Part shown: piece after piece, positions 2,528 through 53,241 of the stretch | Layout: every line of letters starts with the position of its first letter | Numbering within the stretch: position 1 is the first letter of the stretch | NCBI RefSeq assembly: GCF_007004725.1 | Contig: NZ_ML660162.1 | Span: 1-64,000 of the forward strand | Length of the DNA: 64,000 nucleotides | Reading direction: 5' to 3' | From: Aliikangiella coralliicola | GTDB taxonomy: Bacteria; Pseudomonadota; Gammaproteobacteria; Enterobacterales; Kangiellaceae | Program-made: the position numbers and the translations under genes | The notes under the pieces: generated by a model | What the model saw: the letters and a program-made list of their open reading frames with translations, nothing else | The model's database searches: none | Told to the model about the DNA's origin: nothing

Positions 2528-2542
2528 TTATTTCCCTCGGTG

Positions 2543-2567
2543 AGGAGCCCTCTGGGCTCCTGATTTT
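2543..2567 (+). terminator. Rho-independent terminator after fahA
   Basis: Perfect 8-bp stem AGGAGCCC/GGGCTCCT with a TCT loop, followed by GATTTT, 15 bases after the fahA stop codon. Confidence 0.8.
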
Positions 2568-2694
2568 CACAAGAATATCACTACTCCCAACGCTATATCT
2601 TGATTCGAAACATCAATTTACAACCATAGCTTGTGCCATTTCCCCTCACTTGGTAGGCTCAATTAACTAATAATTATAACCAAGACCACTTGCC

Positions 2695-14659: not shown

Positions 14660-15269
14660 AAATATTTATCTGGATCTGGACAGTCCTTACGATCTTCGAT
14701 GTTTTAGTATTGACGAAAACAGCGTTCCTTGTGGCAAACCAGACATCACATTAACTCGGGTTTGCGACGCTGAAATTTCAAATGTCAGCATTGAGCGTTC
14801 AATGTTTGAAAAGGTCATTTCAATCGGTCGCTCTTGTTACCTTGAATCTGCCGACCGTCTCGCGTTTCACAATGGCCCAATCAAACTAACATCAGTTAAA
14901 GTTAATGACAGACCAGCAGGGAAAATAAAGATCGGTAATAATGTCGTACTTCAGGGAACTGCTATTATCGCTTATCAATCAGTTGAAATCGAAGATAATG
15001 TTACCTTCGGGCCACAAGTAACCATTATGGATAGTAGTGGTCATCCAGTCACCGGACGAGGAGAGCCCGACGAAGCTGAGCGGATCACGGCCAAACCCGT
15101 AATAATAAAAAGCGGCGCATGGATTGGAATGAATGTCATTATTCTTAAGGGCGTGACTATCGGAAAAAATGCGGTTGTCGGTGCGGGAAGTGTCGTAGTT
15201 TCCGACGTTCCAGATAATTGTATTGTGTCGGGTAACCCGTGCAAAATTGTGAAGTTCATTAACCAATAA
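14640..15269 (+). CDS. Hexapeptide-repeat acyltransferase
   Basis: A 209-residue left-handed beta-helix (LbH) O-acyl/acetyltransferase. From about residue 95 the hexapeptide rungs are visible (KIKIGNNVVLQGTAII, VEIEDNVTFGPQVTIMD, IIKSGAWIGMNVIILKGVTIG, AVVGAGSVVVSDVPDNCIVSGNP). The latter half is of the maltose/galactoside acetyltransferase type, with the likely catalytic His in DSSGHPV. The N-terminal 90 residues form a separate domain I do not recognise. It overlaps the upstream glycosyltransferase by 20 bases and probably decorates the sugar that enzyme transfers. Confidence 0.85.
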   Translation: MQMPEYRNIYLDLDSPYDLRCFSIDENSVPCGKPDITLTRVCDAEISNVSIERSMFEKVISIGRSCYLESADRLAFHNGPIKLTSVKVNDRPAGKIKIGNNVVLQGTAIIAYQSVEIEDNVTFGPQVTIMDSSGHPVTGRGEPDEAERITAKPVIIKSGAWIGMNVIILKGVTIGKNAVVGAGSVVVSDVPDNCIVSGNPCKIVKFINQ

Positions 15270-15331
15270 AATATTCAAGATTTTTCATTGACGGGTGGTT
15301 TTCCCTCCTCTTTCTGGCCGGCTCTTTACCA

Positions 15332-16639
15332 ATGAACACACAATTCAAAATCTTATTGGCAGCGTCAATTCCGATCGCCATTCAAACATTGTTATTCTCT
15401 TCCAAATCAATTATTGATGTTTTTCTTCTTAGCGATTTGGGAGCGGATAATGTATCGGCAATTGGCATCGCTAATCGAATTTGTACCATGATATGCATTT
15501 TTTTAGTCGGTGTTTCAACGGGAGGGCATTATGTCACCTCTCAGTGTACTCATGAAAAAAATAAATTGCATTCAAGTACAACTTTGTTACTGATCGTAAG
15601 TCTTGTTTTTTGTTTATTAATTTGTGCCGGCATATACTACGCTAATGCGTATTTGATCTATTTATCAACCACAAAACATGAAATCATCGAACTAACGCAG
15701 TCTTACCTTTTAGTCGTTAACTACATGTTTCTCTGCCTCGCTATCTGTAGTGTTATTTCTGGCTACCTGAGAATACTGGGCCATGTAAAATTCGTTTCAA
15801 GTGCGAGTGTCTTAGGCGTTCTGACTAATTTAATTATTAGCTATTATTTAATTACAGATTATGACTTGGGAATTATGGGAGCCGCTTATGGAACACTTTT
15901 CTCTGCCATACTTGAAACACTATTAATTGCGCTATTTCTGGTTTACCGAAAAACTGCTTTTTTTCGTTTGCAAGGCATTAATATTAAGCAGATTCGAATC
16001 ATTCTATATCAATCTCTGACTTCAAGTGCGGGTAGCATGTTATGGGCTGTTGGCGCGTTTATACTTCATTCGTTAATTAGCAGTACAAGTGAAAATTCTA
16101 TGTATATGATGGCAATAATATCACCAATAGAAAGTATCGCTTTGTGTTTTTGCCTTGGGTTGTCAATTGCAACAAGCATTGAAATTGGCAAAAGCATTGG
16201 TGCCAATGACCGTCGTTCAACTTATGAAATTGCTAAAGCATCATTTTTTCTTTCAACATTGGTCACGGTGAGCATCGTATCCGCACTATTAATATTCGAA
16301 AACTCAGTTTTTGAATTGTTTAGTGAACAAAATCTATCAAGAAAATTTTTTCACGATTTTTACCTCATCGCTATTTTCTCAATAATACTGAAAAGCTTTA
16401 ACATTGTCCTGATCAGCGGTGTAATAAGAAGTGGAGGCGATGCAAACTACTGTCTTAAACTGGACTTTTTAACGCAGTGGCTCATCGCCATTCCCGCAGC
16501 TTACCTACTCGGCAAGATGGGATATCCGGGAACTTCTTTACTCCTGGTAATTTTAGTTGAAGAGGTTATCAAAAGTCTGTTTGCCTACTATCGTTTTCTT
16601 TCGGATCGGTGGAGAACTAACCTCTCTCACATGTTTTGA
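15332..16639 (+). CDS. MATE-family transporter
   Basis: A 435-residue membrane protein with about 12 helices in two six-helix halves. It is recognised as MATE by the N-terminal IPIAIQTLLFSSKSIIDV, GYLRILGHVKFV between halves and the second-half GVIRSGGDANY. MATE proteins export drugs or lipid-linked and small secondary products using Na+ or H+. As third gene after a glycosyltransferase and acyltransferase it could export their product. No ribosome site is obvious at the ATG. Confidence 0.85.
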   Translation: MNTQFKILLAASIPIAIQTLLFSSKSIIDVFLLSDLGADNVSAIGIANRICTMICIFLVGVSTGGHYVTSQCTHEKNKLHSSTTLLLIVSLVFCLLICAGIYYANAYLIYLSTTKHEIIELTQSYLLVVNYMFLCLAICSVISGYLRILGHVKFVSSASVLGVLTNLIISYYLITDYDLGIMGAAYGTLFSAILETLLIALFLVYRKTAFFRLQGINIKQIRIILYQSLTSSAGSMLWAVGAFILHSLISSTSENSMYMMAIISPIESIALCFCLGLSIATSIEIGKSIGANDRRSTYEIAKASFFLSTLVTVSIVSALLIFENSVFELFSEQNLSRKFFHDFYLIAIFSIILKSFNIVLISGVIRSGGDANYCLKLDFLTQWLIAIPAAYLLGKMGYPGTSLLLVILVEEVIKSLFAYYRFLSDRWRTNLSHMF

Positions 16640-40834: not shown

Positions 40835-41731
40835 TTATTTCGCCCAGAAAAACTCAATGTCTTTGTGTAAACATTCAAATTCAACCGGGGTTCTCCCCAT
40901 AACCTCACCATCAGGAATGAGCATGCCTGGATTTTCTTCAATCACTTTTACTTTTTTTACTTGAAGATATTCGATCTCAGGGTATTTAATATGCGACCCA
41001 TCATAAATACTCGTAAACAAGCGTAATAATTTTAATCGTGAAACATTATTTAACAACACCACATCTAACAAGCCATCGTCAAGTTCGGCTTTAGGTGCCA
41101 TCAGGAAGGTGGTTCCGGTATAACGCGAGTTAGCAACTTCTACAAAAACACCGTCTCGCTCAATGGTTTTACCGTCAATTTCTAACACCATTTTTTGTGC
41201 TTTAAGGTTAATCAGCTTTTGCAGCGTAGCAACAGTATACGCGGCATTTCCCATCCATTTTAATGGAATAGCCGCTTGCGCAACATCGGTAACAAATCCC
41301 ATGCCTACAATATTTAAAAAGTGATGGGTTTGATTTTGAGAAACAAAACGACCAACATCGAGTGGTCTGGAATGGTTTGAAGCAATAATATCGATAGCTT
41401 TACGCCAATCTGATTTTTGCAACTGGAGCTCTTTCATAAAAGCATTTCCAGTACCATTTGGAATGAGACCAATCGGCGGCTTTTTCTCACTATTGCATTG
41501 GTAATAGCCGTTAACCACTTCAAACAAAGTGCCATCGCCACCGGAAGCGATAAGACCGTCATAACGACTTAGATCGGACTCAGCAACCAACTCAACCGCA
41601 TGTGCCGGCCGATCGGTGAGTAGCAGTTCCGCATCTAATCCTTTTTCATTCAGATATTGTCTAACTTGTGGAAGCAATATTTTAGCGCGACCATTACCAG
41701 CCTGCGGGTTGTAGATAACTAATAACTTCAT
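40835..41731 (-). CDS. Diacylglycerol/lipid kinase family protein
   Basis: A 298-residue DAGK-catalytic-domain kinase (YegS/DgkB/BmrU-like). Signatures: KLLVIYNPQAGNGRA, the nucleotide loop SGGDGTLFEVVNG, PIGLIPNGTGNAFMKEL, and the C-terminal DDGLLDVVLLNN. These cytosolic enzymes phosphorylate diacylglycerol, phosphatidylglycerol or related lipids; the exact lipid cannot be read from sequence. It is divergent from the arsenic-related operon. Confidence 0.88.
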   Translation of the reverse strand: MKLLVIYNPQAGNGRAKILLPQVRQYLNEKGLDAELLLTDRPAHAVELVAESDLSRYDGLIASGGDGTLFEVVNGYYQCNSEKKPPIGLIPNGTGNAFMKELQLQKSDWRKAIDIIASNHSRPLDVGRFVSQNQTHHFLNIVGMGFVTDVAQAAIPLKWMGNAAYTVATLQKLINLKAQKMVLEIDGKTIERDGVFVEVANSRYTGTTFLMAPKAELDDGLLDVVLLNNVSRLKLLRLFTSIYDGSHIKYPEIEYLQVKKVKVIEENPGMLIPDGEVMGRTPVEFECLHKDIEFFWAK

Positions 41732-42239
41732 CGATGACTTCTACGACTTACAACTTGAAAATAGTGCACCACTCTAATCAGTTGAGAGCATGCTGTCAAA
41801 AAAACAAATTACTCGCTAAATGCCTTACTCTATTTAATCGATAAGAAAATTTTAATTGCTCTCATTGATGTTAATCATGAACTCAATCGACATCTCTCGC
41901 CACTAAATAAGCTCCTGCTTGAACTTCAATTACTTCAACAGGGGATTTTCTGATACCGAATTTTGCCTCACAGGAATGCAAGTTGATCATTTTCAGCAAT
42001 AAAAATAGACCATCTCTACTGGTTAATCAGACAGTTCTTGACACAACAACCCAACAATCAGCTCAATCATGATGCTTTTGTGGCTCACATCAGCCTAAAT
42101 ATCACGAAATCATAACATCTTAATCACGCTTTTAAATGGCTATTGAAGTTCTTTTCTCACTAAATTAGCCTGAAAAAAGACCTAAAAATGTCGACAGGTT
42201 GCTCTGTCGGCAAAACAAAAATTAGTTGGAGCAATGATT
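41732..42239. other. Region upstream of the arsenic-related operon
   Basis: About 500 AT-rich bases between divergent genes. A good -35 (TTGACA, 42038-42043) lacks a matching -10. CGACAG/CTGTCG (42192-42197 and 42204-42209) forms a small hairpin just upstream of the first gene's ribosome site. No ArsR-type operator is recognisable by eye. No gene seen. Confidence 0.5.
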
Positions 42240-43121
42240 ATGACCATTTGGGCTCAGTCTTACTTGAATAAAATAGCCACTTTTAAAAAAGACAAGACAT
42301 TGGCAAAACCAGGCAGCTTGTTAATTTCCGCTGGAATATTATTGTTTAGCAGCACGGCCTGGTCCGGAGCCTGGGTTCCTGAGGTTGGATCGGGCTACAG
42401 CAAATTTGCATTTTCAGATTACAAAGCTGATGACTTCTTTGGCGATAACGCCACATCAGTGGACTTTTCAGGTCAAAACTATTCCTACTATGGAGAATAT
42501 GGCTTTACCAAAGACTTCGCGATTTACGGTACTTTGTTATATCAAGATTTAGAACAAATTAACAACGCTGGTGTAGCGAGCGAGTCAAGTGGTTTCGGTG
42601 ATACAGAAATTGGCATTAGATACCAGTGGCAAGCACAGCCATTTGTTGTTTCCACCTCTTTTTTAGTAAAACTTCCTTTTCTGTATGACGAAAATGATGC
42701 ATTGCCCAGAGGAAATGGTCAGGAAGACTATGAGCTAAGAATACTGTTTGGCCGCAGCTTAAATGAATATGGTTATCTCGGATTTGAAGCAGGATACAGA
42801 TTAAGAACCGGTGCCCCTTCCGACGAATACCGTTATTTATTCGAGTATGGATTTTCAGTCAGTGATAATTTCTATTTACGCACAAAAGTTGACACGACCA
42901 TAAGCGCTAATAACGCAGATACAGTGAGCAATAATTCAAATCTTTCCATCACACCAGAGTTTGATTTAACTAAATTGGAACTCACAGCAGGCTGGACTCT
43001 CGGTGATGCCAAATCAAGCAAAGAAAAATGGGGCGTTGAAATTACCTATCGTCAAGATCTTGATGGTGAAAACACGCTGGAAGGTGATGGTTTTGAAATT
43101 GGATTAACTAGAGTTTTTTAA
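42240..43121 (+). CDS. Outer-membrane beta-barrel (transporter/porin-like)
   Basis: A 293-residue protein with an extended signal peptide (after KPGSLLISAGILLFSSTAWS) and alternating amphipathic strands ending in ...GLTRVF, a terminal aromatic as in outer-membrane barrels. The pattern (YGEYGFTKDFAIYGTLLY, GDTEIGIRYQW) fits small transporter-type barrels of the 'MetA-pathway of phenol degradation' sort. ATG at 42240, eight bases after GGAG, is preferred over ATG 42234. As first gene of the arsenic-related operon it could pass a substrate or product across the outer membrane. Confidence 0.7.
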   Translation: MTIWAQSYLNKIATFKKDKTLAKPGSLLISAGILLFSSTAWSGAWVPEVGSGYSKFAFSDYKADDFFGDNATSVDFSGQNYSYYGEYGFTKDFAIYGTLLYQDLEQINNAGVASESSGFGDTEIGIRYQWQAQPFVVSTSFLVKLPFLYDENDALPRGNGQEDYELRILFGRSLNEYGYLGFEAGYRLRTGAPSDEYRYLFEYGFSVSDNFYLRTKVDTTISANNADTVSNNSNLSITPEFDLTKLELTAGWTLGDAKSSKEKWGVEITYRQDLDGENTLEGDGFEIGLTRVF

Positions 43122-43138
43122 TCAGAGAGTAAGATAAC

Positions 43139-44659
43139 ATGATGACGCTAAGTTATGTTCTCCTGTCACTTCACTTTCTGATGCTGGCGATTTTGTGTTT
43201 GTTCGGTATTCATCGCTTGTCGATGGTAGTTCGCTGGATCTTTTATCGAAAGATGACCGCAATTAAACCCAAGGCCTTTTCCACTTTACCCAGGGTGACG
43301 GTTCAAATTCCGCTTTACAACGAAAGATTAGTCGCACAACGAATTGTCGACGCAGTTGCCCAAATTGATTACCCACATGACAAACTGCAGATTCAAATTG
43401 TTGATGACTCTACAGATGAAACCTCGCAATTGGTTGCTACTGCAGTAGAAAAATACGCTAAACAAGGACTCGATATTAACCACGTACATCGTGTGAATCG
43501 AAAGGGATTTAAAGCCGGCGCGTTAAAAGATGCGATGAAGTCAGCGACCGGCGACTTTATCGCTATCTTTGATGCTGACTTCATTCCCTCTCCTTCGATT
43601 ATTAAAGACACCATCGACCATTTCAACAACGAAAAGCTCGCAATGATTCAATTTAGATGGGAGCATCTCAATCGCCATGATAGTCGGCTAACAGAAACTC
43701 AGGCAATGATGCTGGATTCCCATTTCTCACTGGAACAGCAGGTCCGCTATGCCAGTGACGTTTTATTTAACTTCAATGGGACAGCTGGAATCTGGCGAAC
43801 AAAAGCAATTATTGATGCTGGTCATTGGAGTGCCGATACTTTAACCGAAGATCTGGATCTCAGCTATCGTGCTCAACTCAAAGGTTGGGAGTTAGTTTAT
43901 CTGAATGATGTCGTTTGTCCCGGCGAATTGCCAGCCGATATGAACGCCTTTAAAAGCCAGCAGCATCGATGGGCTAAAGGTGGAATTCAGGTGATGAAAA
44001 AAATGTTATTAAAGGTTTGGCGCTCCCCTCTCAGCTTACGTCACAAACTTGAGTCGACCTTTCATTTATCAAATAACCTGGCTTACTTTGTGATGCTGGT
44101 TGATACAATATTTCTTCTTATTCCAAGTTTGATCATTCGAGAGCAATACCAGCTGGAACAGGTTTTATGGATTGACTTGCCCTTATTATTTCTCTCCTCC
44201 GGCGGTCACCTGGTTTATTTCTTTTTTGGTCAAATCGCATTAGGGCATTCTAAGTGGCGCGCTATTAAGAATATGCCGAGAGTTCTATTACTCGGAATTC
44301 AACTCGCATTCAATAACGCGAAAGCGGCATTAGAAGCGCTAAGAGGTCAGCAAAGCGAATTCGTAAGAACACCTAAAAGCGGTGCCAATGAAGTTCAAAG
44401 CGTTGAACAAAATATAAGTCAAGATCTTTCTTTTACCGCTTCAGTCAACGCTAAGTTGAGCCAAGGTCTCTATAAAGCAGTTTCCCCGCGAGGAGGTGGT
44501 ATTGAAGGCTTACTGGGTGTGATTTATTCCTTTGTATTCTTTTGGGGAATCAAGCATGAACTCTGGTTTATGCTGCCCTTTTTGCTGTTACTAATTGTCG
44601 GCTTTTTTAGTACTGCGATCAGCACATTAAAAACTCAGCATAAATTGAGCAGAGGGTAA
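43139..44659 (+). CDS. Processive family 2 glycosyltransferase, membrane-bound
   Basis: A 506-residue cellulose-synthase-like GT2. One N-terminal helix, then VQIPLYNE, VDDSTDETSQL, DADFIP (DxD), TEDLDLSYRAQLKGW (catalytic base) and QQHRW (QxxRW), the set seen in BcsA/NodC-type enzymes. Several C-terminal transmembrane helices follow. It lacks a PilZ domain. Ends one base before the next gene. It may polymerise or transfer sugar onto a lipid or the arsenical product of the pathway, but this is inference from position. Confidence 0.85.
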   Translation: MMTLSYVLLSLHFLMLAILCLFGIHRLSMVVRWIFYRKMTAIKPKAFSTLPRVTVQIPLYNERLVAQRIVDAVAQIDYPHDKLQIQIVDDSTDETSQLVATAVEKYAKQGLDINHVHRVNRKGFKAGALKDAMKSATGDFIAIFDADFIPSPSIIKDTIDHFNNEKLAMIQFRWEHLNRHDSRLTETQAMMLDSHFSLEQQVRYASDVLFNFNGTAGIWRTKAIIDAGHWSADTLTEDLDLSYRAQLKGWELVYLNDVVCPGELPADMNAFKSQQHRWAKGGIQVMKKMLLKVWRSPLSLRHKLESTFHLSNNLAYFVMLVDTIFLLIPSLIIREQYQLEQVLWIDLPLLFLSSGGHLVYFFFGQIALGHSKWRAIKNMPRVLLLGIQLAFNNAKAALEALRGQQSEFVRTPKSGANEVQSVEQNISQDLSFTASVNAKLSQGLYKAVSPRGGGIEGLLGVIYSFVFFWGIKHELWFMLPFLLLLIVGFFSTAISTLKTQHKLSRG

Positions 44660-44660
44660 C

Positions 44661-46079
44661 ATGGGTTCTTTTTCTACAGAAAGTAAACGCAAAGTACTCC
44701 ACAGATTTAGTTTAGCCATGATAATTCTGGTCGCGCTCTTAAGCTACTTTATTAGCGATGCTCACTTGCACCAGACCTGGATGGGTGCAGAGAACTTAGG
44801 TTGGTTAACCGTTTGTCAGTTTATTTTGATGACGTTTTTTATGTTAGTGGCCTGGAGAAGCGCGCCAAACGCAAAGCGCTTGAAAGACGTTTACTTATTA
44901 TTGATCGTTGCAATTATCGCTCGGCTATTGCTAATTCCAGTTGAACCTTATACCTCAACAGATACAGATCGTTATCTTTTCGACGGTAAGATCGCACTTT
45001 CAGGTTTTGACCCTTATCGAGTAAACCACAACGAGCCAGCTTTAAGCGAATTAAAAAAACAGTGGGCTCCACCGGAAGAACACGCCAAGTATCCAACCTT
45101 ATATCCACCGCTTTCCCTTGGGTTATTCACTTTGGTCGCAGCATCTGGAGCAGACCATGCCCCCCACCTATGGAAATTGGTAACGACATTCGCCGGAATT
45201 TCTACGCTGCTAATTTTAGCGATACTACTTAAAAATCTCGGGCGGCTGCGACACTTATCATTGGTCGCATTTTCTCCTCTATTAATATTGGAAAGCGGAA
45301 TCGGCGTTCACATCGACAGCATTTCGACGCTCCTCGTATCATTGGCGCTTTATAGCTTTTCCAAAAATAAAATCGCAACTTCGGGCTTTTTTATTGGACT
45401 CGGAACATTGACCAAAATATTGCCGCTTATGCTATTGCTTCCCCTGGTATTTGGTTTAAAAAAAATAGCTGATTCTTTTCGGTTGTCGATCGCCACTGTA
45501 CTCACTATTTTTGCAGGCTACATGATAACTATTACCTTCGGGTTAATCCCCGTCGGAAGTATCGGTACGCTCTTTGAAAAATGGCGATTTGGCTCTCCCC
45601 TGTTTAATTTGTTCGAAAATATTGCCGAAGGAAAAGAACTACTTTTGATTACTTTTTTTGCCCTTTCTGCAGGTTGTAGCTTTATTTTTTACCGTACACT
45701 AAAACTGGAAAAAAGAATCGATGTACTTAGCCCCTTACTGCCCTGGAGTCTGGCAGTTGTCTTACTAGTTAGTCCTGTCGTATTCCCTTGGTACTTGATG
45801 GTTTTAGTTCCTTTTGCTGCACTATCACCTCGCCCCTTTATGTTAGCCTGGGTTAGTGTGTTACCACTGACATACGAAGTACTTGGTGGCTTTGTGAGTG
45901 CAGGTAGTTGGTCACCTGCCAACTGGCCATTAGTCTTAATTTCAATCACTTTACTCATCTCCATTTATTTTGAAAGCCGCCGAAAGCTAGATTGGCAAGC
46001 GATTAATAAAATGCTCTTCAGAAGCCAAGCCTCCATAAACAGACGCTCTGGAAATGCAATGACGAGAGAAAAATATTGA
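44661..46079 (+). CDS. GT-C-like membrane glycosyltransferase
   Basis: A 472-residue polytopic membrane protein with about 11-12 helices and an acidic periplasmic-loop motif after the second or third helix (EPYTSTDTDRYLFDGKIALSG, then YPTLYPPLS), typical of GT87/DUF2029-type mannosyltransferases that use polyprenyl-phosphate sugars. The start lies one base after the previous stop, and TGATG overlap joins it to the next gene. A role in glycosylating a lipid-linked or exported product is inferred. Confidence 0.7.
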   Translation: MGSFSTESKRKVLHRFSLAMIILVALLSYFISDAHLHQTWMGAENLGWLTVCQFILMTFFMLVAWRSAPNAKRLKDVYLLLIVAIIARLLLIPVEPYTSTDTDRYLFDGKIALSGFDPYRVNHNEPALSELKKQWAPPEEHAKYPTLYPPLSLGLFTLVAASGADHAPHLWKLVTTFAGISTLLILAILLKNLGRLRHLSLVAFSPLLILESGIGVHIDSISTLLVSLALYSFSKNKIATSGFFIGLGTLTKILPLMLLLPLVFGLKKIADSFRLSIATVLTIFAGYMITITFGLIPVGSIGTLFEKWRFGSPLFNLFENIAEGKELLLITFFALSAGCSFIFYRTLKLEKRIDVLSPLLPWSLAVVLLVSPVVFPWYLMVLVPFAALSPRPFMLAWVSVLPLTYEVLGGFVSAGSWSPANWPLVLISITLLISIYFESRRKLDWQAINKMLFRSQASINRRSGNAMTREKY

Positions 46080-48421
46080 TGTTAAGTCTGATACGCAAAT
46101 ACTCAAACTGGCTTCACGGTCAATGGCCGTCAGGTAGTGTCGAAAAGCTTCCGTTAGTGAACAATGATGGAACAACCAATATACCAGGTGTTTACATCAC
46201 TGGTGATTTAACTGGAATACCACTGTTAAAGTTTTCCGCAGATTCAGGAACTCGAGCTGTCGAACACCTGACTGCCGATGACAAATTTATTAATCGTAAA
46301 CAACAACCATCGGTTTACGACTTAATTATTATTGGAGCGGGTGTCAGCGGTTACGCAGCAGCAATAGAAGCCAGTAAAAGAAAACTCAACTTTCTTTTAC
46401 TGGAAGCATCTGATGCTTTCTCAACTATCAAAAACTTTCCCGAGAAAAAACCGATATTTACTTATCCTATAGAGATGAAACCCAGAGGGGAATTACAGTT
46501 CGGGGACAAGGACAACACCAAAGAAAAACTACTGAACAACCTGAAACAAACTGTAGAAAAGCTAGACATAAAGCTGACCAGTGAAAATGTCACCCATGTA
46601 AAACCTCGCGGCAAAATTATTAACGTTTACACTAGCTCGGATAAAGCAATTCCAGCCCATAAAGTCATCATCGCAATTGGCCGTTCAGGCAACTATCGCC
46701 GACTTGCTGTAACAGGTGAAGATAAAGAGAAAGTTGTTAATCGACTACACGACCCGAAAAAGTACGCTGACAAGAAAACACTCATTGTGGGCGGTGGAGA
46801 TAGTGCTCTTGAAGGTGCTATCGCTATCGCCAACACACAAAACGAAAACAGCTATCAACCAACGACTCCGCAATTAACACTCGTTCATCGTAATGAGGAT
46901 TTTAACCGAGCTAAAGAAGAAAATGTCAATTCGTTACTCGCACTCGAGGCAGAAGGTAGAATTAAGATTCTGCGTTCTTCTACCATCGAAAAAATAGATG
47001 ATGAAAGTGTTTCAGTCAAAACAGAAAGCGGTGAAGTATCGACATTACAAAACGATGCAGTGCTCACATTGATAGGGAGAGAAGCGCCTCTCGCATTTTT
47101 CAGAAAAAGCGGGATTGATATTAAAGGTGAATCCAAGCTTTCAGGCTGGTTGTTTTTCATTTTATTTTTTATTTTCACGATTGGCTTATATGACTGGAAA
47201 AATTACGGTTTTCTCAATAGTTTATGGGGATTAACCCAGTTTCCTGATCAAATGCCTGCCCTTATCGCCGGATTAGGCGACTGGTGGCAGTCTCAAATTA
47301 ATGATCGTTCAACTTTAGTTGGCACTATCGCAATTTCAATGAAAAGCCGCTCCTTTTACTACACGCTATTATATACAAGCTGCATCGGAATATTTGGTTG
47401 GCAACGTATTAAGCGCAGAAAAACAAAATATGTCACGGTGCAAACCTATTGCCTTTTCTTCATTCAGTTTATTCCGTTATTTTTATTACCCGAAGTCATT
47501 TTACCCTGGTTAGGATATTCGGGATTTTTTGACACAGGCATCGCGAAAGATGTTGCGAACAACCTGTTTCCCAGTTACATCTCTGCGGAAGCACTAGCAT
47601 CACAACAATGGCCTGAATGGGGACATCCCCGAGCATATTGGCACGCCTATGGGTTTATTCTTGCCTGGCCGCTCAATGTCTACAATGTTTTTACCCCGAA
47701 TCCAATGACTGGATGGTTAATCATTAGCTTTATACAGACTTTCATTCTGTTGCCACTAATGATCTACAAGTATGGAAAAGGTGTTTACTGTGGCTGGATA
47801 TGTTCATGTGGCGCCTTAGCCGAAACTATGGGCGACAAACAGCGTCACAAAATGCCCCACGGTCCCTTCTGGAATAAACTCAACTTAATTGGCCAGGTTC
47901 TATTGTTAGTCGCGGTTTTATTATTGTTAGTCAGAGTGTATGGCTGGTTTTTCCCGGAAAGCTGGGCACACCACTCATTTGACTTTCTACTAAAAGGTGA
48001 AAATAGCGATTATAAACTGGTTAACCCATTAAGCTGGAAATGGACCGTCGATGTGCTACTCGGTGGAATCCTCGGGGTCGGTTTGTATTTCAAATATTCA
48101 GGACGAGTGTGGTGTCGCTTTGCCTGTCCTTTAGCAGCGCTAATGAATATCTATGCTCGCTTTAGCCGATTTAGAATTTTCGCAAATAAAGATAAATGTA
48201 TTAGCTGTAATGTGTGCACCAGCGTATGTCATCAGGGCATCGATATTATGAGTTTCGCGAACAAAGGTTTGCCAATGGCCGATCCTCAGTGCGTTCGTTG
48301 CTCAGCTTGTATAGAAAGTTGCCCCACCAACGTACTAGAGTTTGGCGAAATTAATAAAGCAAACGGAACCCCCTTAAAGCTGAGTCGATTAAAGGCAATT
48401 TCAATCAAAGTCGTTGAGTAA
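46079..48421 (+). CDS. FAD oxidoreductase fused to NapH-type Fe-S membrane protein
   Basis: A 780-residue fusion. Residues 34-62 (NIPGVYITGDLTGIPLLKF) look like the C-terminal FAD segment of thioredoxin-reductase-type enzymes but stand at the N-terminus. They are followed by GAGVSG (86-91) FAD-binding and VGGGDSALEG NAD(P)-binding loops. The second half has about five helices, CGWICSCGA and CRFACPLAAL as in NapH/CcoG, and two 4Fe-4S motifs (CISCNVCTSVC and CVRCSACIESC). It probably moves NAD(P)H electrons to or from the membrane. ATG overlaps the previous stop. It is likely the redox partner of the cluster. Confidence 0.8.
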   Translation: MLSLIRKYSNWLHGQWPSGSVEKLPLVNNDGTTNIPGVYITGDLTGIPLLKFSADSGTRAVEHLTADDKFINRKQQPSVYDLIIIGAGVSGYAAAIEASKRKLNFLLLEASDAFSTIKNFPEKKPIFTYPIEMKPRGELQFGDKDNTKEKLLNNLKQTVEKLDIKLTSENVTHVKPRGKIINVYTSSDKAIPAHKVIIAIGRSGNYRRLAVTGEDKEKVVNRLHDPKKYADKKTLIVGGGDSALEGAIAIANTQNENSYQPTTPQLTLVHRNEDFNRAKEENVNSLLALEAEGRIKILRSSTIEKIDDESVSVKTESGEVSTLQNDAVLTLIGREAPLAFFRKSGIDIKGESKLSGWLFFILFFIFTIGLYDWKNYGFLNSLWGLTQFPDQMPALIAGLGDWWQSQINDRSTLVGTIAISMKSRSFYYTLLYTSCIGIFGWQRIKRRKTKYVTVQTYCLFFIQFIPLFLLPEVILPWLGYSGFFDTGIAKDVANNLFPSYISAEALASQQWPEWGHPRAYWHAYGFILAWPLNVYNVFTPNPMTGWLIISFIQTFILLPLMIYKYGKGVYCGWICSCGALAETMGDKQRHKMPHGPFWNKLNLIGQVLLLVAVLLLLVRVYGWFFPESWAHHSFDFLLKGENSDYKLVNPLSWKWTVDVLLGGILGVGLYFKYSGRVWCRFACPLAALMNIYARFSRFRIFANKDKCISCNVCTSVCHQGIDIMSFANKGLPMADPQCVRCSACIESCPTNVLEFGEINKANGTPLKLSRLKAISIKVVE

Positions 48422-48464
48422 GAAATGCATGACGAAACGAAGTTAAAAGAGAGAACTTAATTAT

Positions 48465-49211
48465 ATGTATCGAGGACGAAGAGTTTCAGCAGTAATACCT
48501 GCACTTAACGAACAATTGGCCATTGGAAAAGTGGTCCAGCAATTGAATTCTTTGAAGAATGCTAACGGATTAAAAATTATTGATGATGTAATTGTTTGCG
48601 ACAACGGCTCAAACGATAACACGGCGCAAGTAGCCGAACAAAGTGGCGCAAGAGTTATCCAACAAGCAACGCCCGGTTATGGTATTGCCTGTCTTACCGC
48701 TTTAAGCATTGTCAAACCTTGCGAGATAATTTTGTTTGTTGATGGTGATGACTCCTGCTTCATAGAACAAACAACTTCGTTGCTGGCAGGCATTGTTAAC
48801 GGCGATAACCTGGCTATTGGTTCACGAGTTAAGGGGAATGTAGAAAAAGGTGCATTAACTTCAATTCAAAAGTTTGGCAACGCTCTTGCGGCATTTCTCA
48901 TTCGCCGACTCTGGCATTACGACATTACTGATCTGGGACCTTTTCGCGCGATTAAAACTTCGACATTAAAAAAACTCGATATGCAAGATCAAACTTTCGG
49001 GTGGACGGTGGAAATGCAAATAAAAGCCATTCAATTAGGCTTTAAGATAAGCGAATATCCGGTGGATTCAAAAGTTAGAATCGGCCAATCAAAAATAAGT
49101 GGAACAATAAAGGGTTCTATCAAAGCAGGCTTTAGTATTTTAACAATGATAGCTAAATTGCGTTTGATGCAACGGAAAACCCTTGCAAAATTTGCACTGG
49201 AAGATTCCTAA
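48465..49211 (+). CDS. Family 2 glycosyltransferase (DPM/DPG-synthase-like)
   Basis: A 248-residue GT2 without clear transmembrane helices. VSAVIPALNEQLAIGKVV, VCDNGSNDNTAQVA and ILFVDGDD (DxD) form the nucleotide-sugar site; ITDLGPFRAIKTSTL and GWTVEMQIKA form the acceptor region. It resembles dolichyl/polyprenyl-phosphate mannose or glucose synthases, which would supply lipid-linked sugar to the GT-C enzyme upstream. It ends one base before the DUF2064 gene. Confidence 0.85.
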   Translation: MYRGRRVSAVIPALNEQLAIGKVVQQLNSLKNANGLKIIDDVIVCDNGSNDNTAQVAEQSGARVIQQATPGYGIACLTALSIVKPCEIILFVDGDDSCFIEQTTSLLAGIVNGDNLAIGSRVKGNVEKGALTSIQKFGNALAAFLIRRLWHYDITDLGPFRAIKTSTLKKLDMQDQTFGWTVEMQIKAIQLGFKISEYPVDSKVRIGQSKISGTIKGSIKAGFSILTMIAKLRLMQRKTLAKFALEDS

Positions 49212-49212
49212 C

Positions 49213-49923
49213 ATGAAATCTCAAGACTACGTGCTCATTATCTTCTGCAAATGGCCTCGATTGAATCAAGGAAAGCAGCGATTGGCAAAAACGATTGGCG
49301 CGTCCAACGCATTTCGACTGGCTTCACTATTGGTTGATTGTGCATTGGAGGACGCCAAAGATTGGGACGGTGAGGTTGTGCTCGCCATTTCAGATGCCTC
49401 CGATTTTGAACAAGCCAGTCAAGCAATTCAAAAACAAATTTCTGATAATCAAAAAATATCGATACAGGTTCAGTCTAAGGGAAATCTGGGGCAACGAATT
49501 AATCACATTGATCAAAATTTGAGAGAAAGAGGCAAAAACAACCTTCTATTTATCGGCACAGACGCCCCCGTTCTCAACCCACTTTATTATCAACAAGCAA
49601 AAGAAGCTATCACTTCATCAGATATTGTTATCAGTGACGCGAGTGATGGTGGAGTGATTATTATGGGTAATAGAAAAGCCTGGCCAGACTTAACATTTTT
49701 GCCCTGGAGTACAGAAAAATTATCAAAAAAGCTCTCCAGAATTTGCGCAAAACAGAGGTTGAGCGTGACCCGAATTAAGCCAGGTTTTGATATTGACGTT
49801 GAAAAGGATCTGGAAAAGCTCTTCGTCGCGATAGATTCTGACTCACGCCGTTCAAGAATAGCTTTACGTCAGTGGCTCGTTAACTATTTAGAAACTAATC
49901 AGGAATTAATCAATGCTGGATAA
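49213..49923 (+). CDS. DUF2064 / TIGR04282 glycosyltransferase-like protein
   Basis: A 236-residue GT-A-fold protein of the DUF2064 group. Hallmarks are VLIIFCKWPRLNQGKQRLAKTIG (nucleotidyl/glycosyl donor loop), QVQSKGNLGQRINHI, LLFIGTDAPVL and SDASDGGVIIMG. The family (TIGR04282) is named arsenosugar biosynthesis glycosyltransferase from its genome context with arsenic radical SAM genes; biochemical proof is limited. ATG 49213 lies one base after the previous stop; the frame's earlier ATG would overlap that gene. It overlaps the ArsM-like gene by 11 bases. Confidence 0.85.
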   Translation: MKSQDYVLIIFCKWPRLNQGKQRLAKTIGASNAFRLASLLVDCALEDAKDWDGEVVLAISDASDFEQASQAIQKQISDNQKISIQVQSKGNLGQRINHIDQNLRERGKNNLLFIGTDAPVLNPLYYQQAKEAITSSDIVISDASDGGVIIMGNRKAWPDLTFLPWSTEKLSKKLSRICAKQRLSVTRIKPGFDIDVEKDLEKLFVAIDSDSRRSRIALRQWLVNYLETNQELINAG

Positions 49924-50986
49924 TGTAAAAAACTACTATGGAAAAGTCTTAGAAAAGTCTCAAGACCTCCAAACTAATGCCTGTTGTACAGATGAGTCAA
50001 TTCCACCATTTGTGAAAACAGCTCTCTCTAAAATACATAACGAAGTGATGACTCGATACTACGGTTGCGGACTGGTAGTCCCAGAAGAATTATCCAACTG
50101 TCATATTCTCGATTTGGGCAGCGGTTCTGGTAGAGATTGTTACGCGCTAGCACAGATGGTCGGTGAGCAAGGAAGTGTAACCGGGGTCGATATGACCGAT
50201 GAGCAATTATCAGTTGCGAACAAATACCAGGAATACCATCGCGATAAATTTGGCTACCAACGGTCTAATGTGCATTTTAAAAAAGGTTATATTGAGCGAT
50301 TAGACGAACTCGACCTGGCCGACGAAAGTTTCGACATCATAGTGTCAAACTGCGTTATCAATCTATCGACAGATAAAGCAGCCGTTCTGAAGCAGGCATA
50401 TCGATTATTAAAGCCTGGTGGCGAGCTTTATTTTTCAGATGTTTATGCTGATAGGAGAATCCCCAAACATCTTGTAAGCGATCCTGTTCTTTATGGTGAG
50501 TGTCTCAGCGGCGCACTCTACTGGAACGATTTTATTAGATTATCAAAATCAAGTGGTTTTCTGGATCCTCGACTGGTAAATAGTCGGAAAATTTCCATCG
50601 GCAATCCACAAATCATCGAGCGAGTTGCTGGAATCAATTTTTACTCTGCAACCTACCGACTATTTAAGTTACCCAAACTAGAAAGTCATTGTGAAGATTA
50701 TGGCCAGGCAGTAATTTATCAAGGCGGGATAGAGCACCATCAAGAACAGTTCGCGCTGGATGAACATCACCATTTTATTAAAGGAAAAGCGACGAGCGTT
50801 TGCGGAAACACCTGGAGAATGTTGCATCAGAGCCGCTTTGCTCGATACTTCAGCTTTATTGGAAACTTCGACACTCACTTCGGGATCTATCAAGATTGCG
50901 GCACCCAAATTCCTTTTTCATCAAACCATACCAGTTTTAACAATGAGAAAATTGAAGTTTCTGAACAAAATGGCGGGTGTTGTTGA
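49913..50986 (+). CDS. arsM: ArsM-like arsenite S-adenosylmethionine methyltransferase
   Basis: A 357-residue SAM methyltransferase. SAM motif I is ILDLGSGSGRD (65-75). Cysteines at 24/25, 52, 147 and 197 reproduce the spacing of the four conserved arsenic-binding cysteines of algal ArsM (28 residues between the first two, 50 between the last two). C147 sits in SNCVINLS and C197 in YGECLSG, and the protein ends in GGCC. ArsM converts As(III) stepwise to methyl and dimethyl arsenicals. AGGA precedes the ATG, and the 3' end overlaps the radical SAM start (TGATG). Confidence 0.88.
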   Translation: MLDNVKNYYGKVLEKSQDLQTNACCTDESIPPFVKTALSKIHNEVMTRYYGCGLVVPEELSNCHILDLGSGSGRDCYALAQMVGEQGSVTGVDMTDEQLSVANKYQEYHRDKFGYQRSNVHFKKGYIERLDELDLADESFDIIVSNCVINLSTDKAAVLKQAYRLLKPGGELYFSDVYADRRIPKHLVSDPVLYGECLSGALYWNDFIRLSKSSGFLDPRLVNSRKISIGNPQIIERVAGINFYSATYRLFKLPKLESHCEDYGQAVIYQGGIEHHQEQFALDEHHHFIKGKATSVCGNTWRMLHQSRFARYFSFIGNFDTHFGIYQDCGTQIPFSSNHTSFNNEKIEVSEQNGGCC

Positions 50987-51900
50987 TGATAAGCTTAAGA
51001 AGCAAAAACTGGCAAATAACATCAACTGGAGAGCCCAGAGGATATATTCAACCTCACGCGCTAAATGAAGTTTGGTTTCATACTGGAACACGCTGTAATC
51101 TTGCCTGCGATTTTTGTCTGGAGGGAGCCAGTCCTTCAGATAAGCGACTTCAAGCACCTCGGTTTGAAGAAGTTAAACCTTTCATTGATGAAGCCCTTGA
51201 GCTTGGCGCAAAACAATTTTCCTTTACCGGTGGAGAACCTTTTCTGATAAAAGATTTCATCAAGATTGTTGAATACGCTTCTCGCTTTAACCCCTGTCTG
51301 ATTTTAACAAATGGAACGGATTCACCTTTAAAACGATTGGATGCACTCCTTGATATTAGCGATGAGCATTTTCCGATTTCATTTCGAGTCAGCATTGATT
51401 ATCCAGACTCAAAACGACACAACATGGGACGTGGCGAAGGAACCTTCGAGCAAGCAATTACTGGGCTAAAGCGGCTTTATGATAAGGGCTTTTCGGTATC
51501 GGTCGCCCGTCATCAGGATGCAAACGAGAATTCAGAGGAAGTTAACAGGCAGTTTAAGCAACTTTTCAGCCTTATCGGTTTGCCTGATTCGCTAAATATT
51601 GTCGCTTTTCCTGACTTTCTTCGACCCGGCTCTATTCCCGAAGTTCCTCATATAACCACCGACTGTATGACCCGGTACCAATCGAAAGAGCAAAGAGAAA
51701 ATTACATGTGCGCCACATCAAAAATGATCGTTAAAAAAAATGGGCGTATGCAAGTTTATGCCTGCACCCTGGTCGATGACGATGAGGAATATTGTCTAGG
51801 GCATTCACTTAAGCAAAGCCTGCAAAATAGAATCAGTCTCAAACATCATCGTTGCTACAGTTGCTTTGCTTATGGAGCAAGTTGCAGTGAAAAATGTTAG
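50986..51900 (+). CDS. Radical SAM protein with Cys-rich C-terminus
   Basis: A 304-residue radical SAM enzyme. The [4Fe-4S] motif Cx3Cx2C is at Cys37, Cys41 and Cys44 (TRCNLACDFC), and FTGGEP is the SAM-binding GGE motif. The C-terminal part has many cysteines (YMCATSK, YACTL, EYCLG, CYSC, CSEKC), like a SPASM or auxiliary-cluster domain. It sits where ArsS, which joins 5'-deoxyadenosyl to dimethylarsenic, would be expected, but it does not show the ArsS C-terminal domain pattern I know. ATG overlaps the ArsM stop, so it is tightly coupled. Confidence 0.85.
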   Translation: MISLRSKNWQITSTGEPRGYIQPHALNEVWFHTGTRCNLACDFCLEGASPSDKRLQAPRFEEVKPFIDEALELGAKQFSFTGGEPFLIKDFIKIVEYASRFNPCLILTNGTDSPLKRLDALLDISDEHFPISFRVSIDYPDSKRHNMGRGEGTFEQAITGLKRLYDKGFSVSVARHQDANENSEEVNRQFKQLFSLIGLPDSLNIVAFPDFLRPGSIPEVPHITTDCMTRYQSKEQRENYMCATSKMIVKKNGRMQVYACTLVDDDEEYCLGHSLKQSLQNRISLKHHRCYSCFAYGASCSEKC

Positions 51901-51953
51901 GTCAGATTATCAGTAAATAAAATCTTATTAAACAATATGACTGGAGTAATCGA

Positions 51954-52376
51954 ATGAAAAATATTCTCTTCCTGTGCACAGGCAATTCATGTCGCAGTCA
52001 AATGGCGGAAGGTTTCTGCCGTAGTTTGCAATCAGATAAATTCAACGGGTATTCCGCAGGAATTAAAGCTCACGGTTTAAACCCGTATGCCATCAAAGTC
52101 ATGCGTGAAAGCGGAATCGATATTACTCAGCAAAGTTCGAAGACATTGGAAGAAATAGAAGATATAGAGTTTGATTACATTGTCACGGTCTGCGACAACG
52201 CTGAGCGTAGCTGCCCTGACTTTCCTCAATCAAATATTATTCATCGGCGGTTCGATGATCCACCGGCGCTGGCGAAATATGCCAAAGACGAATCAGAAGT
52301 TCTTGTCCACTTTCGCCAAGTGAGAGATGAAATTAAAAATTGGGTCAATCAACTTCCACATGAACTAAGGCTTTAA
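51954..52376 (+). CDS. arsC: Thioredoxin-coupled arsenate reductase
   Basis: A 140-residue arsenate reductase of the low-molecular-weight phosphatase type (Staphylococcus/Bacillus ArsC family). P-loop Cys8-TGNSC-Arg14; redox cysteines Cys80 and Cys87 (VTVCDNAERSC) with the same spacing as Cys10/82/89 in pI258 ArsC; RRFDDPPA follows. It reduces arsenate to arsenite, feeding ArsM. GGAG lies upstream of the ATG. It sits 53 bases after the radical SAM gene and 16 before the phosphorylase gene. Confidence 0.92.
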   Translation: MKNILFLCTGNSCRSQMAEGFCRSLQSDKFNGYSAGIKAHGLNPYAIKVMRESGIDITQQSSKTLEEIEDIEFDYIVTVCDNAERSCPDFPQSNIIHRRFDDPPALAKYAKDESEVLVHFRQVRDEIKNWVNQLPHELRL

Positions 52377-52392
52377 TCAAGAGGAGAATTAA

Positions 52393-53241
52393 ATGTTAGC
52401 AATAATTGGCGGCACCGGTCTTTATAAAATTGATGAACTAGATATCAAAGATAGCATCGAAGTCTCAACCCCATTCGGCATGCCTTCAGCAAATGCCGTT
52501 AAAGGCAACTACAAAGGCAGAGACGTACTTTTTTTACCTCGCCACGGTAATGCACATCAATTACTACCATCGGAAATTAACTATAAAGCCAATATTTGGG
52601 CATTAAAAAGTCTGGGTGCGACCCAAATAATTGGCGTGTCCGCTGTCGGCAGTTTGCGAGAGGAAATTCGACCAGGCGACTTGAGTATTCCCTCTCAATA
52701 TTTTGACTTCGTAAAAGGCAACAGGGAAAAGAGTTTTTTTGGCAATGGACTAGTCGCACACGTCTCAACAGCCAATCCAATTTGCCATTCGATGGCCGAT
52801 GATATCGTCAAAGCCGCAAATACTATCGATATTCCAATACATCAAGGGCAATCTTATGCAGGTGTAGATGGTCCCAGGTTGGGCACAAGAGTAGAAAGTC
52901 AGTTTTTACGTGAATCATGTCAATGTGACCTAGTAGGAATGACAAATGTTCCCGAGGTTTTCCTCGCTCGAGAAGCACAAATAAGTTACTGCACTATCAC
53001 TATCGCGACCGACTACGATTGTTGGAAAGATGACCCAGCAGATCACGTCACTGTCGAAAAAGTTATCCAACGCTTTGGCGAAAGTCTTGCCAAGGCACAA
53101 AAGGTTCTGATGGCATATTTACTAACCAATACAACCGATTGTGTTGACGGATGCCGTTCGAGCTTAGCGAGTGCAATATTGTCTCCAAGAGATTTATTGA
53201 ATGAAGAGCAAAGTCGACTGCTGGAGCTACTCGAAAAGTAG
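52393..53241 (+). CDS. mtnP: S-methyl-5'-thioadenosine phosphorylase
   Basis: A 282-residue MTAP/PNP-family phosphorylase. IIGGTGLY, PRHGNAH (phosphate site), GVSAVGSLR, VGMTNVPEVFLAREA (ribose contact) and ATDYDCW (the two Asp that select adenine). It cleaves MTA, and also 5'-deoxyadenosine, to adenine and a 5-deoxyribose-1-phosphate derivative. In this operon it may salvage 5'-deoxyadenosine from the radical SAM step or remove adenine from an adenosyl-arsenical. GAGGAG precedes the ATG. Confidence 0.92.
   Translation: MLAIIGGTGLYKIDELDIKDSIEVSTPFGMPSANAVKGNYKGRDVLFLPRHGNAHQLLPSEINYKANIWALKSLGATQIIGVSAVGSLREEIRPGDLSIPSQYFDFVKGNREKSFFGNGLVAHVSTANPICHSMADDIVKAANTIDIPIHQGQSYAGVDGPRLGTRVESQFLRESCQCDLVGMTNVPEVFLAREAQISYCTITIATDYDCWKDDPADHVTVEKVIQRFGESLAKAQKVLMAYLLTNTTDCVDGCRSSLASAILSPRDLLNEEQSRLLELLEK

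Follow-up and report, generated by a model that had tools for sequence, protein, structure and literature searches.

A probable arsenosugar-type operon with membrane glycosylation genes in Aliikangiella coralliicola and its conservation

Introduction

What becomes of arsenic in a bacterium that carries arsenosugar-type genes in one operon with genes for membrane glycosylation? This question is raised by ten genes of Aliikangiella coralliicola (Gammaproteobacteria, Kangiellaceae) located on the plus strand at 42234-53241 of the window, i.e., of the whole stretch of 64,000 nucleotides analyzed here (positions 1 to 64,000 of contig NZ_ML660162.1, assembly GCF_007004725.1). The deduced proteins comprise an arsenate reductase (ArsC), an arsenite methyltransferase (ArsM), an ArsS-like radical S-adenosylmethionine (SAM) protein, an MTAP-like phosphorylase and a TIGR04282/CofC-like protein, together with an outer-membrane barrel-like protein, a cellulose-synthase-like glycosyltransferase (GT) of the GT2 type, a GT-C enzyme, an AglJ-like GT2 (PPGT2) and an oxidoreductase fused to a NapH-like membrane domain. 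An initial annotation had suggested a lipid-linked or exported arsenic glycoconjugate as their product. With the conserved unit and the GT-C model described below, this is still the most economical reading; the joint product itself is one that we infer, because barrel-GT2-GT-C genes also occur without adjacent arsenic genes (genomes G143 and G416). In its most specific form, which we advance tentatively and would rate somewhat short of even, an arsenic-bearing sugar would be made by a second adenosyl-arsenic radical SAM lineage replacing ArsS, loaded onto polyprenyl phosphate and set by the GT-C enzyme on a surface glycan or lipid.

A review (PMC12159101) ascribes the adenosylation of arsenic on the way to arsenosugars to a radical SAM enzyme, and the literature consulted on bacterial arsenosugar enzymes names ArsM and ArsS only. 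Likewise, among the matches listed from open-licence PubMed Central literature, no title or abstract opening describes the present gene set.

Results and Discussion

Conservation of the ten-gene operon

The operon is real, conserved and organized. As initially annotated, all ten genes are found on the plus strand with an intergenic spacing of -29 to +53 bases (stop-to-start gaps in gene order of 17, 1, -4, 43, -29, -11, -10, 53, and 16 bases), while the proposed start at 42240 is an in-frame ATG lying within an open reading frame (ORF) that begins six bases earlier, at 42234. Five aligned radical SAM sequences served as the query in a scan of genome contigs, which gave at least 543 confirmed relatives; the best 80 of these were fetched with flanks of up to 10 kb. 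Together with five loci from sample genomes, 85 gene maps were obtained, and clustering of neighboring ORFs took in 84 loci plus the window. Co-occurrence was counted over 81 loci, leaving out L047, L051, L067, and L092, which have no radical SAM member after clustering, and excluding the distant relatives L021 and L016. L145, showing one stop inside its match, was kept as is, and the same genome appears under two identifiers in the pairs L151/L032, L152/L026, L153/L024, and L156/L043.

Of the 80 scan loci, 10 have the same gene order, as does one of the four mapped sample genomes (G139), giving 11 long operons besides the window. These belong to Colwellia, Shewanella, Parashewanella, Pseudocolwellia, Paraglaciecola, and gammaproteobacterial bins. 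The order is shared by several genera whose proteins are about 36-67% identical and is not due to chance, and a mere chance neighborhood was rejected on its recurrence in the radical SAM scan loci as well as in the GT-C genomes described below. In the 12 long-operon loci (window counted), ArsM and MTAP are always present (12/12 each) and ArsC in 10/12. Across all 85 loci, TIGR04282 proteins were found in 65, ArsM in 36, MTAP in 36 and ArsC in 19, and the membrane components GT-C, GT2, PPGT2 and barrel in 12, 12, 11, and 11, respectively.

Frequent partners of the radical SAM gene over the 81 loci are TIGR04282 (58/81) and TIGR04283 (47/81), and MTAP belongs to the radical SAM gene block in 33/81. 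TIGR04283, a further partner beside the DUF547 gene, is family F2 of the clustering, a label taken from the score of one representative member (177.7 bits, cut-off 182) and from the fusion in L055 described below. Distribution of the two glycosyltransferase types is mutually exclusive: 48 loci have TIGR04283 only, 12 PPGT2 only, 21 neither and none both (n = 81). Hence, at these loci the AglJ-like GT2 appears to stand in place of TIGR04283, and the initial view of all added genes as lying outside the arsenosugar pathway has to be amended for this protein, which seems to be a replacement and no pure addition.

As these loci had been found via the radical SAM gene, a search based on the GT-C gene was run in addition. 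Among 394 genomes from the source order, eight gave a match to the GT-C protein (E 1e-30), and seven of the eight hold it within the arsenic operon (the window, G139, G364, G468, G456, G383, and G480; G468, G456, and G383 are also in the radical SAM scan list). Homologs lying mostly apart from each other, the outcome that would speak against a functional unit, are thus mostly not what is observed. In a class-wide sample of 274 genomes, close GT-C genes occur in G000, G139, and G143. All nine genomes with a GT-C protein of at least 40% identity, the window counted, possess a close ArsM, which in the other eight is 61-66% identical to that of the window. The base rate of close ArsM in the order is 10/138 genomes (E 1e-60); five GT-C genomes are among these ten, corresponding to a hypergeometric probability of 6.5e-7 when ignoring kinship (three are of one genus) and assuming that the 138 genomes lie within the 394.

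A further connection comes from L055, a contig of a Kiritimatiellae metagenome-assembled genome (MAG) bearing the radical SAM, ArsM and MTAP genes, which encodes a GT-C–TIGR04283 fusion (1265-3259) and a TIGR04282–TIGR04283 fusion (15256-16590). The GT-C domain of the former is 25% identical to the window GT-C, its TIGR04283 domain reaches 179.7 of 182 bits, and the gene adjoins a GT2 like that of the window. Judged by these sequences from one MAG, GT-C is linked through the fusions with the glycosyltransferase of arsenosugar synthesis in a different phylum, too.

Table 1. Predicted products of the ten-gene operon, with positions in the window.
Product	Position	Strand	Basis of assignment
Outer-membrane beta-barrel-like protein, 295 aa	42234..43121	+	without Pfam/NCBIfam match
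Processive GT2, cellulose-synthase-like, hydrophobic segments C-terminal	43139..44659	+	PF13641, CelA TIGR03030
GT-C glycosyltransferase, predicted polyprenyl-phosphate-sugar user	44661..46079	+	structure model and Foldseek
FAD/NAD(P)H oxidoreductase fused to NapH-like 4Fe-4S membrane domain, 781 aa	46076..48421	+	Pyr_redox_3, NapH TIGR02163
AglJ-like GT2 (PPGT2), predicted polyprenyl-phosphate glycosyltransferase, 248 residues	48465..49211	+	AglJ TIGR04182
TIGR04282/CofC-like nucleotidyltransferase-fold protein	49183..49923 (alternative start ATG 49213)	+	TIGR04282, CofC
ArsM, putative arsenite S-adenosylmethionine methyltransferase	49913..50986	+	five solved methyltransferases, cysteines
ArsS-like radical SAM protein, auxiliary-cluster-type cysteines C-terminal	50977..51900	+	cysteine pattern, fold; below NCBIfam cut-offs
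ArsC, putative thioredoxin-type arsenate reductase, low-molecular-weight protein tyrosine phosphatase fold	51954..52376	+	TIGR02691, cysteines
MTAP-like 5'-modified-adenosine phosphorylase	52393..53241	+	TIGR01694, solved MTAPs

The radical SAM family

Families were assigned by comparing Pfam and NCBIfam profile scores with curated cut-offs. At 51.1 bits against a cut-off of 300 for ArsS (TIGR04167), the radical SAM protein was rejected as a plain ArsS, and at 107 of 380 bits also as a Rv1681-family protein. Nevertheless, its family aligns to ArsS along its length (profile match E 2e-12), and the core triad C40/44/47 (CX3CX2C) as well as C245/263/293/296/303 are present in all 81 family and 21 ArsS sequences. 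C230 is universal in the window family and absent from ArsS, C107 occurs in 93% of the family, and two further cysteines are confined to ArsS. The predicted structure (predicted local distance difference test, pLDDT, 87.9) has SkfB, BlsE, SuiB, and MoaA as nearest folds, whose C-termini we take to be of the SPASM or twitch type.

In the class-wide sample, ArsS was found above cut-off in 134/274 genomes, TIGR04282 in 150/274 (E 0.001), the NF008823-type ArsM in 127/274 (E 1e-20) and the window radical SAM family in 6/274 (E 1e-20), including a distant member of 35% identity in G202; for ArsS and ArsM, up to eight candidates per genome were scored and some ArsM may be missed. TIGR04282 is present in 130/134 ArsS genomes, while 17 genomes have TIGR04282 without ArsS and three further ones show ArsS fragments. 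All six genomes with the window radical SAM family are among these 17 (Fisher 2e-8). None of them has ArsS (0/6; p 0.015 alone), and an ArsM match was obtained in four of the six. Hence, the family looks like a sister of or a stand-in for ArsS. The initial assignment of this protein to an arsenosugar-like set thus stands, with the modification that it represents a separate family, seemingly substituting for ArsS and never found with it in this sample.

Compared to the ArsM/ArsS arsenosugar biosynthesis of the Synechocystis type, the likeness comprises ArsM, a CX3CX2C radical SAM protein with the same C-terminal cysteines and a TIGR04282-type protein. In contrast to that type, the window radical SAM protein is far under the ArsS cut-off and does not co-occur with ArsS in the 274-genome sample, and the operon has MTAP, ArsC and an AglJ-like GT2 for TIGR04283, plus GT-C, processive GT2, and barrel.

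Relatives of the family also occur in other settings. Plasmid pHP-187 of Marinobacter adhaerens HP15 carries an unannotated relative split in two frames (L015:14830-15892), without ArsM nearby. On plasmid p546-1 of Roseomonas haemaphysalidis (L016), a distant relative is found with TIGR04282 and two DUF547 genes, a second radical SAM gene, VTT and FAD proteins and a phosphonate-type ATP-binding cassette transporter, possibly representing a further cluster type. TIGR04282, radical SAM family and TIGR04283 form clusters in L035, L036, L037, L040, L056, L062, L064, and similar loci from Motiliproteus, Neptuniibacter, Amphritea, and Marinobacterium.

ArsM, TIGR04282-like protein, ArsC and MTAP

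The initially given family names agree in kind with the profile results, although five proteins (TIGR04282-like, ArsC, MTAP, ArsM, and ArsS-like) are under the curated NCBIfam cut-offs. ArsM matches five solved arsenite/arsenic methyltransferases at E values from 4e-106 (5evj) to 5e-88, and Cys 24/25, 52, 147, and 197 are invariant in an alignment of four sequences, presumably representing the four cysteines of the catalytic type. Its curated scores are not reached, with 174/263 bits for NF008823 and 106.6/400 bits for AsSugarArsM (NF038099). The TIGR04282-like protein matches the model from end to end with 124.2 bits, slightly less than the cut-off of 134. It shows weak similarity to CofC (32.7 bits) and has a solved relative of the nucleotidyltransferase type (3cgx), which is why it may suit the activation of a sugar-1-phosphate. 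Two isolates, Parashewanella curva C51 and Colwellia psychrerythraea GAB14E, have TIGR04282 and ArsM joined in frame as a single ORF (L031:8172-10004 and L041:8226-10007). Since the two genes overlap in different frames in the window, a sequencing indel might explain such a fusion, but would be needed twice.

ArsC reaches 142 of 174 bits (TIGR02691) and has cysteines at positions 8, 13, 22, 80, and 87. The phosphorylase, at 268.2 bits just under the TIGR01694 cut-off of 274.85, matches solved MTAPs from E 3e-62; among its 13 best solved matches, 12 carry the name MTAP, and the best one is 4glf, named RsfP. Substrates of MTAP are 5'-modified adenosines, and the sole other PNP_UDP_1 gene of the source genome is MTAN-like and below its cut-offs, so that the operon phosphorylase may well suit dimethylarsinoyl-adenosine.

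Presence of MTAP in the radical SAM gene block also fits a reaction yielding methylthioadenosine. This would be expected from ArsL-like chemistry, in which a 3-amino-3-carboxypropyl group is transferred to arsenic, methylthioadenosine is recycled by MTAP and the product is an amino-acid-type organoarsenical. In line with this, no MTAP was found in 15 mapped ArsS neighborhoods, and ArsM is also the partner of ArsL in arsinothricin formation (PMC8552651), where in the arsQML cluster, as in the window, ArsM adjoins a radical SAM gene. That cluster, however, has the ArsQ permease, whereas the window operon shows no permease match and the glycosylation set instead. Moreover, ArsL, compared here by its published description, is reported to have only three conserved cysteines (PMC8552651), whereas the window family keeps five C-terminal ArsS cysteines. 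The partners likewise argue against such a reaction, as TIGR04282 and TIGR04283 accompany the window family at the frequencies given above, TIGR04282 tracks ArsS, and TIGR04283-like genes are present in 11 of the 15 mapped ArsS neighborhoods, most of which were picked for a nearby TIGR04282. Consequently, we regard an ArsL-like reaction as very improbable.

Membrane-associated proteins

The barrel protein gave no Pfam or NCBIfam match at E 0.001. Its homolog in G143 weakly matches OMP_b-brl (PF13505, 23.7 bits versus a cut-off of 28.7), and the N-terminal signal-like stretch and terminal F are features that we take, by rule of thumb, to be those of an outer-membrane protein. The cellulose-synthase-like GT2 scores 93 bits with PF13641 and 127 bits with CelA (TIGR03030, cut-off 699) and matches solved cellulose synthases at E 4e-23. 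For PPGT2, AglJ (TIGR04182) is the best match, at 117 bits (cut-off 325) over residues 7-235 of 248, followed by dolichyl-P-hexose transferase (82 bits) and TIGR04283 (38 bits).

The GT-C protein is weakly similar to PIG-U in the Pfam/NCBIfam comparison. Its predicted structure (pLDDT 76.5, predicted template modeling score 0.80) gave as nearest Foldseek folds, all at modest scores, PimE, GPI transamidase chain U (PIG-U), GPI mannosyltransferase I with Dol-P-Man, and ArnT (TM 0.40-0.49, probability 0.99-1.00, yet E 0.012-0.29). By its model, the protein is therefore predicted to resemble PimE and ArnT, i.e., users of polyprenyl-phosphate sugars. Known systems of polyprenyl-phosphate sugar and GT-C enzyme are ArnC-ArnT, DPM1/Dol-P-Man with PIG-M, and PimE. 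The window operon shares with these the combination of a DPM1/AglJ-like GT2 with a predicted GT-C enzyme, and PimE, GPI mannosyltransferase and ArnT are themselves among the nearest folds of the GT-C model; in contrast to them, the sugar transferred in the window system would be an arsenic-bearing ribose.

Proposed route to an envelope-bound arsenoriboside

A route using these proteins in order would start with reduction of arsenate by ArsC and formation of dimethylarsenite by ArsM (steps 1 and 2). The ArsS-like radical SAM enzyme would then put the 5'-deoxyadenosyl group of SAM on arsenic (step 3), and MTAP might swap adenine for phosphate, giving 5-dimethylarsinoyl-ribose-1-phosphate (step 4). 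This arsenoribose-1-phosphate could be converted to a nucleotide sugar via the TIGR04282/CofC-like protein (step 5) and its arsenoribose be transferred onto polyprenyl phosphate by the AglJ-like GT2, instead of by TIGR04283 (step 6). Finally, the GT-C enzyme would move arsenoribose to an acceptor outside the inner membrane (step 7), perhaps the glycan of the cellulose-synthase-like GT2, passed through the barrel. The families, the conserved order, the co-occurrence, the gene fusions and the replacement of TIGR04283 by the AglJ-like GT2 are shown by the sequences, from which we infer all of the reactions proposed for A. coralliicola, steps 4-7 in particular. An arsenosugar-type core comprising steps 1-3 with an alternative ArsS is quite likely, while for the whole chain, from synthesis of an arsenoriboside to its delivery to the cell envelope, which is our preferred explanation, we consider the chances to be about even.

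A precedent for arsenoribose on an isoprenoid is the algal compound AsSugPhytol, in which an arsenoriboside is bound to an isoprenoid alcohol (PMC10456119, PMC11009773). Being a phytol glycoside, it differs from the route proposed here, which uses polyprenyl phosphate, and it is described in the text consulted without genes. If the proposal holds true, arsenic would be built deliberately into the cell envelope, a new destination for this element, and the operon would supply the genes behind bacterial lipid-linked arsenic and help to explain why marine isoprenoid arsenoribosides exist. The operon proposes a complete ordered route beyond ArsM and ArsS, with phosphorolysis, nucleotide activation and transfer, defines a radical SAM family seeming to replace ArsS, and suggests TIGR04283 and AglJ-like GT2 as interchangeable last steps, one of which leads to a lipid carrier.

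Genes found apart and alternative explanations

Several observations weigh against a joint pathway of the ten genes. In G416, barrel-GT2-GT-C-FAD/NapH-PPGT2 are on one contig without arsenic genes, with TIGR04282-ArsM-radical SAM-ArsC-MTAP on a second one. In G143, barrel-GT2-GT-C have no adjacent arsenic genes, with ArsS, TIGR04282, TIGR04283, and ArsM elsewhere in the genome. Moreover, distant GT-C genes are found beside PPGT2 homologs of 43-55% identity in G235 (with a DUF547 gene), G179, G229, and G143, and no window-type arsenic genes are present in the mapped 9.5-17 kb of the distant GT-C/PPGT2 loci L170, L171, L173, and L174; such pairs are possibly a general polyprenyl-sugar module. 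Besides, the DUF547 gene (94 bits) located between PPGT2 and the TIGR04282 part in the other 11/11 long operons is missing from the window operon, and none of the ten genes belongs to a Pfam/NCBIfam family for arsenic efflux or sensing. The GT-C model has no solved fold at E 0.001 in Foldseek, all matches having E > 0.01, and the tree position of the radical SAM family is unsure because of long branches. Finally, 49 loci have no adjacent ArsM. Among 19 chosen from these, 18 genomes were searched (L053 was left out), and in 16 of the 18, comprising Neptuniibacter, Motiliproteus, Amphritea, Marinobacterium, and one Alteromonadaceae bin, no convincing ArsM was found anywhere, only weak generic methyltransferase matches; a convincing ArsM elsewhere in the genome was obtained in two. 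The radical SAM core is thus not tied to ArsM.

The isolated modules in G143 and G416 and the solitary distant GT-C/PPGT2 pairs would suit an ordinary soluble arsenosugar, with barrel, GT2, GT-C, and AglJ-like GT2 making an unrelated surface glycan on a shared transcript, for example on a horizontally moved island. Occurrence of the radical SAM gene in only 1/37 sampled genomes of the source family, and 1/7 of the source genus, by which the operon is sporadic, fits this as well. Against it, TIGR04283 is absent from all 12 PPGT2-bearing loci (a count at locus level only), and a soluble arsenosugar would therefore lack its usual glycosyltransferase locally. The close ArsM in 9/9 close-GT-C genomes also argues for a linked function. 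In addition, the seven distant-GT-C genomes (G139, G143, G179, G229, G233, G235, and G257) all have ArsS (six) or the window radical SAM family (G139), compared to 140/274 in the sample (p 0.008; ArsS alone p 0.05), which is a weak link. Taken together, an unrelated glycan seems rather unlikely.

The genomes without convincing ArsM would be in line with a radical SAM/TIGR04282/TIGR04283 core acting on a non-arsenic substrate, to which ArsM and ArsC were added in some lineages only. Lack of ArsM is also seen with ArsS itself, as 34/134 ArsS genomes gave no match to NF008823 (E 1e-20) among the up to eight candidates scored per genome, where some may be missed; it may be a trait of the whole arsenosugar-gene group. 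In contrast, the membrane module is always accompanied by ArsM (12/12 loci, 9/9 genomes), and the TIGR04282-ArsM fusions link the core to arsenic, while marine bacteria without ArsM could import dimethylarsinate. A non-arsenic core is accordingly judged improbable, and delivery of an arsenoriboside to the cell envelope is kept as the working proposal for the window operon.

A small ORF of 104-152 amino acids (aa) adjoins GT-C or PPGT2 in each of L170, L171, L173, and L174, all from ArsS genomes, and one of these loci has a DUF547 gene.

Genomic setting and the FAD/NapH fusion

The window is on contig C3 of a genome of 7.04 Mb in 22 contigs. Upstream of the operon is a minus-strand gene at 40835-41731, and an HTH_26 gene follows 85 bases downstream. 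Promoter- and terminator-like patterns at the operon are not more frequent than in shuffled sequence, and no shift in G+C content was seen there.

The fusion of flavin adenine dinucleotide (FAD) oxidoreductase and NapH-like domain (Pyr_redox_3 108 bits, NapH TIGR02163 54 bits), initially listed as a member of the set, is present as annotated but optional. Six of the 12 PPGT2-bearing loci, the window counted, have it within the operon, leaving out an unrelated gene of 28% identity that lies at another place in L027. Its role as an essential part was rejected on this count. The opening stretch of the fusion protein (GVYITGD..., 46076-46300) resembles what we take to be the C-terminal motif of thioredoxin-reductase-like proteins, but here precedes the GxGxxG motif, an arrangement that looks like a circular permutation.

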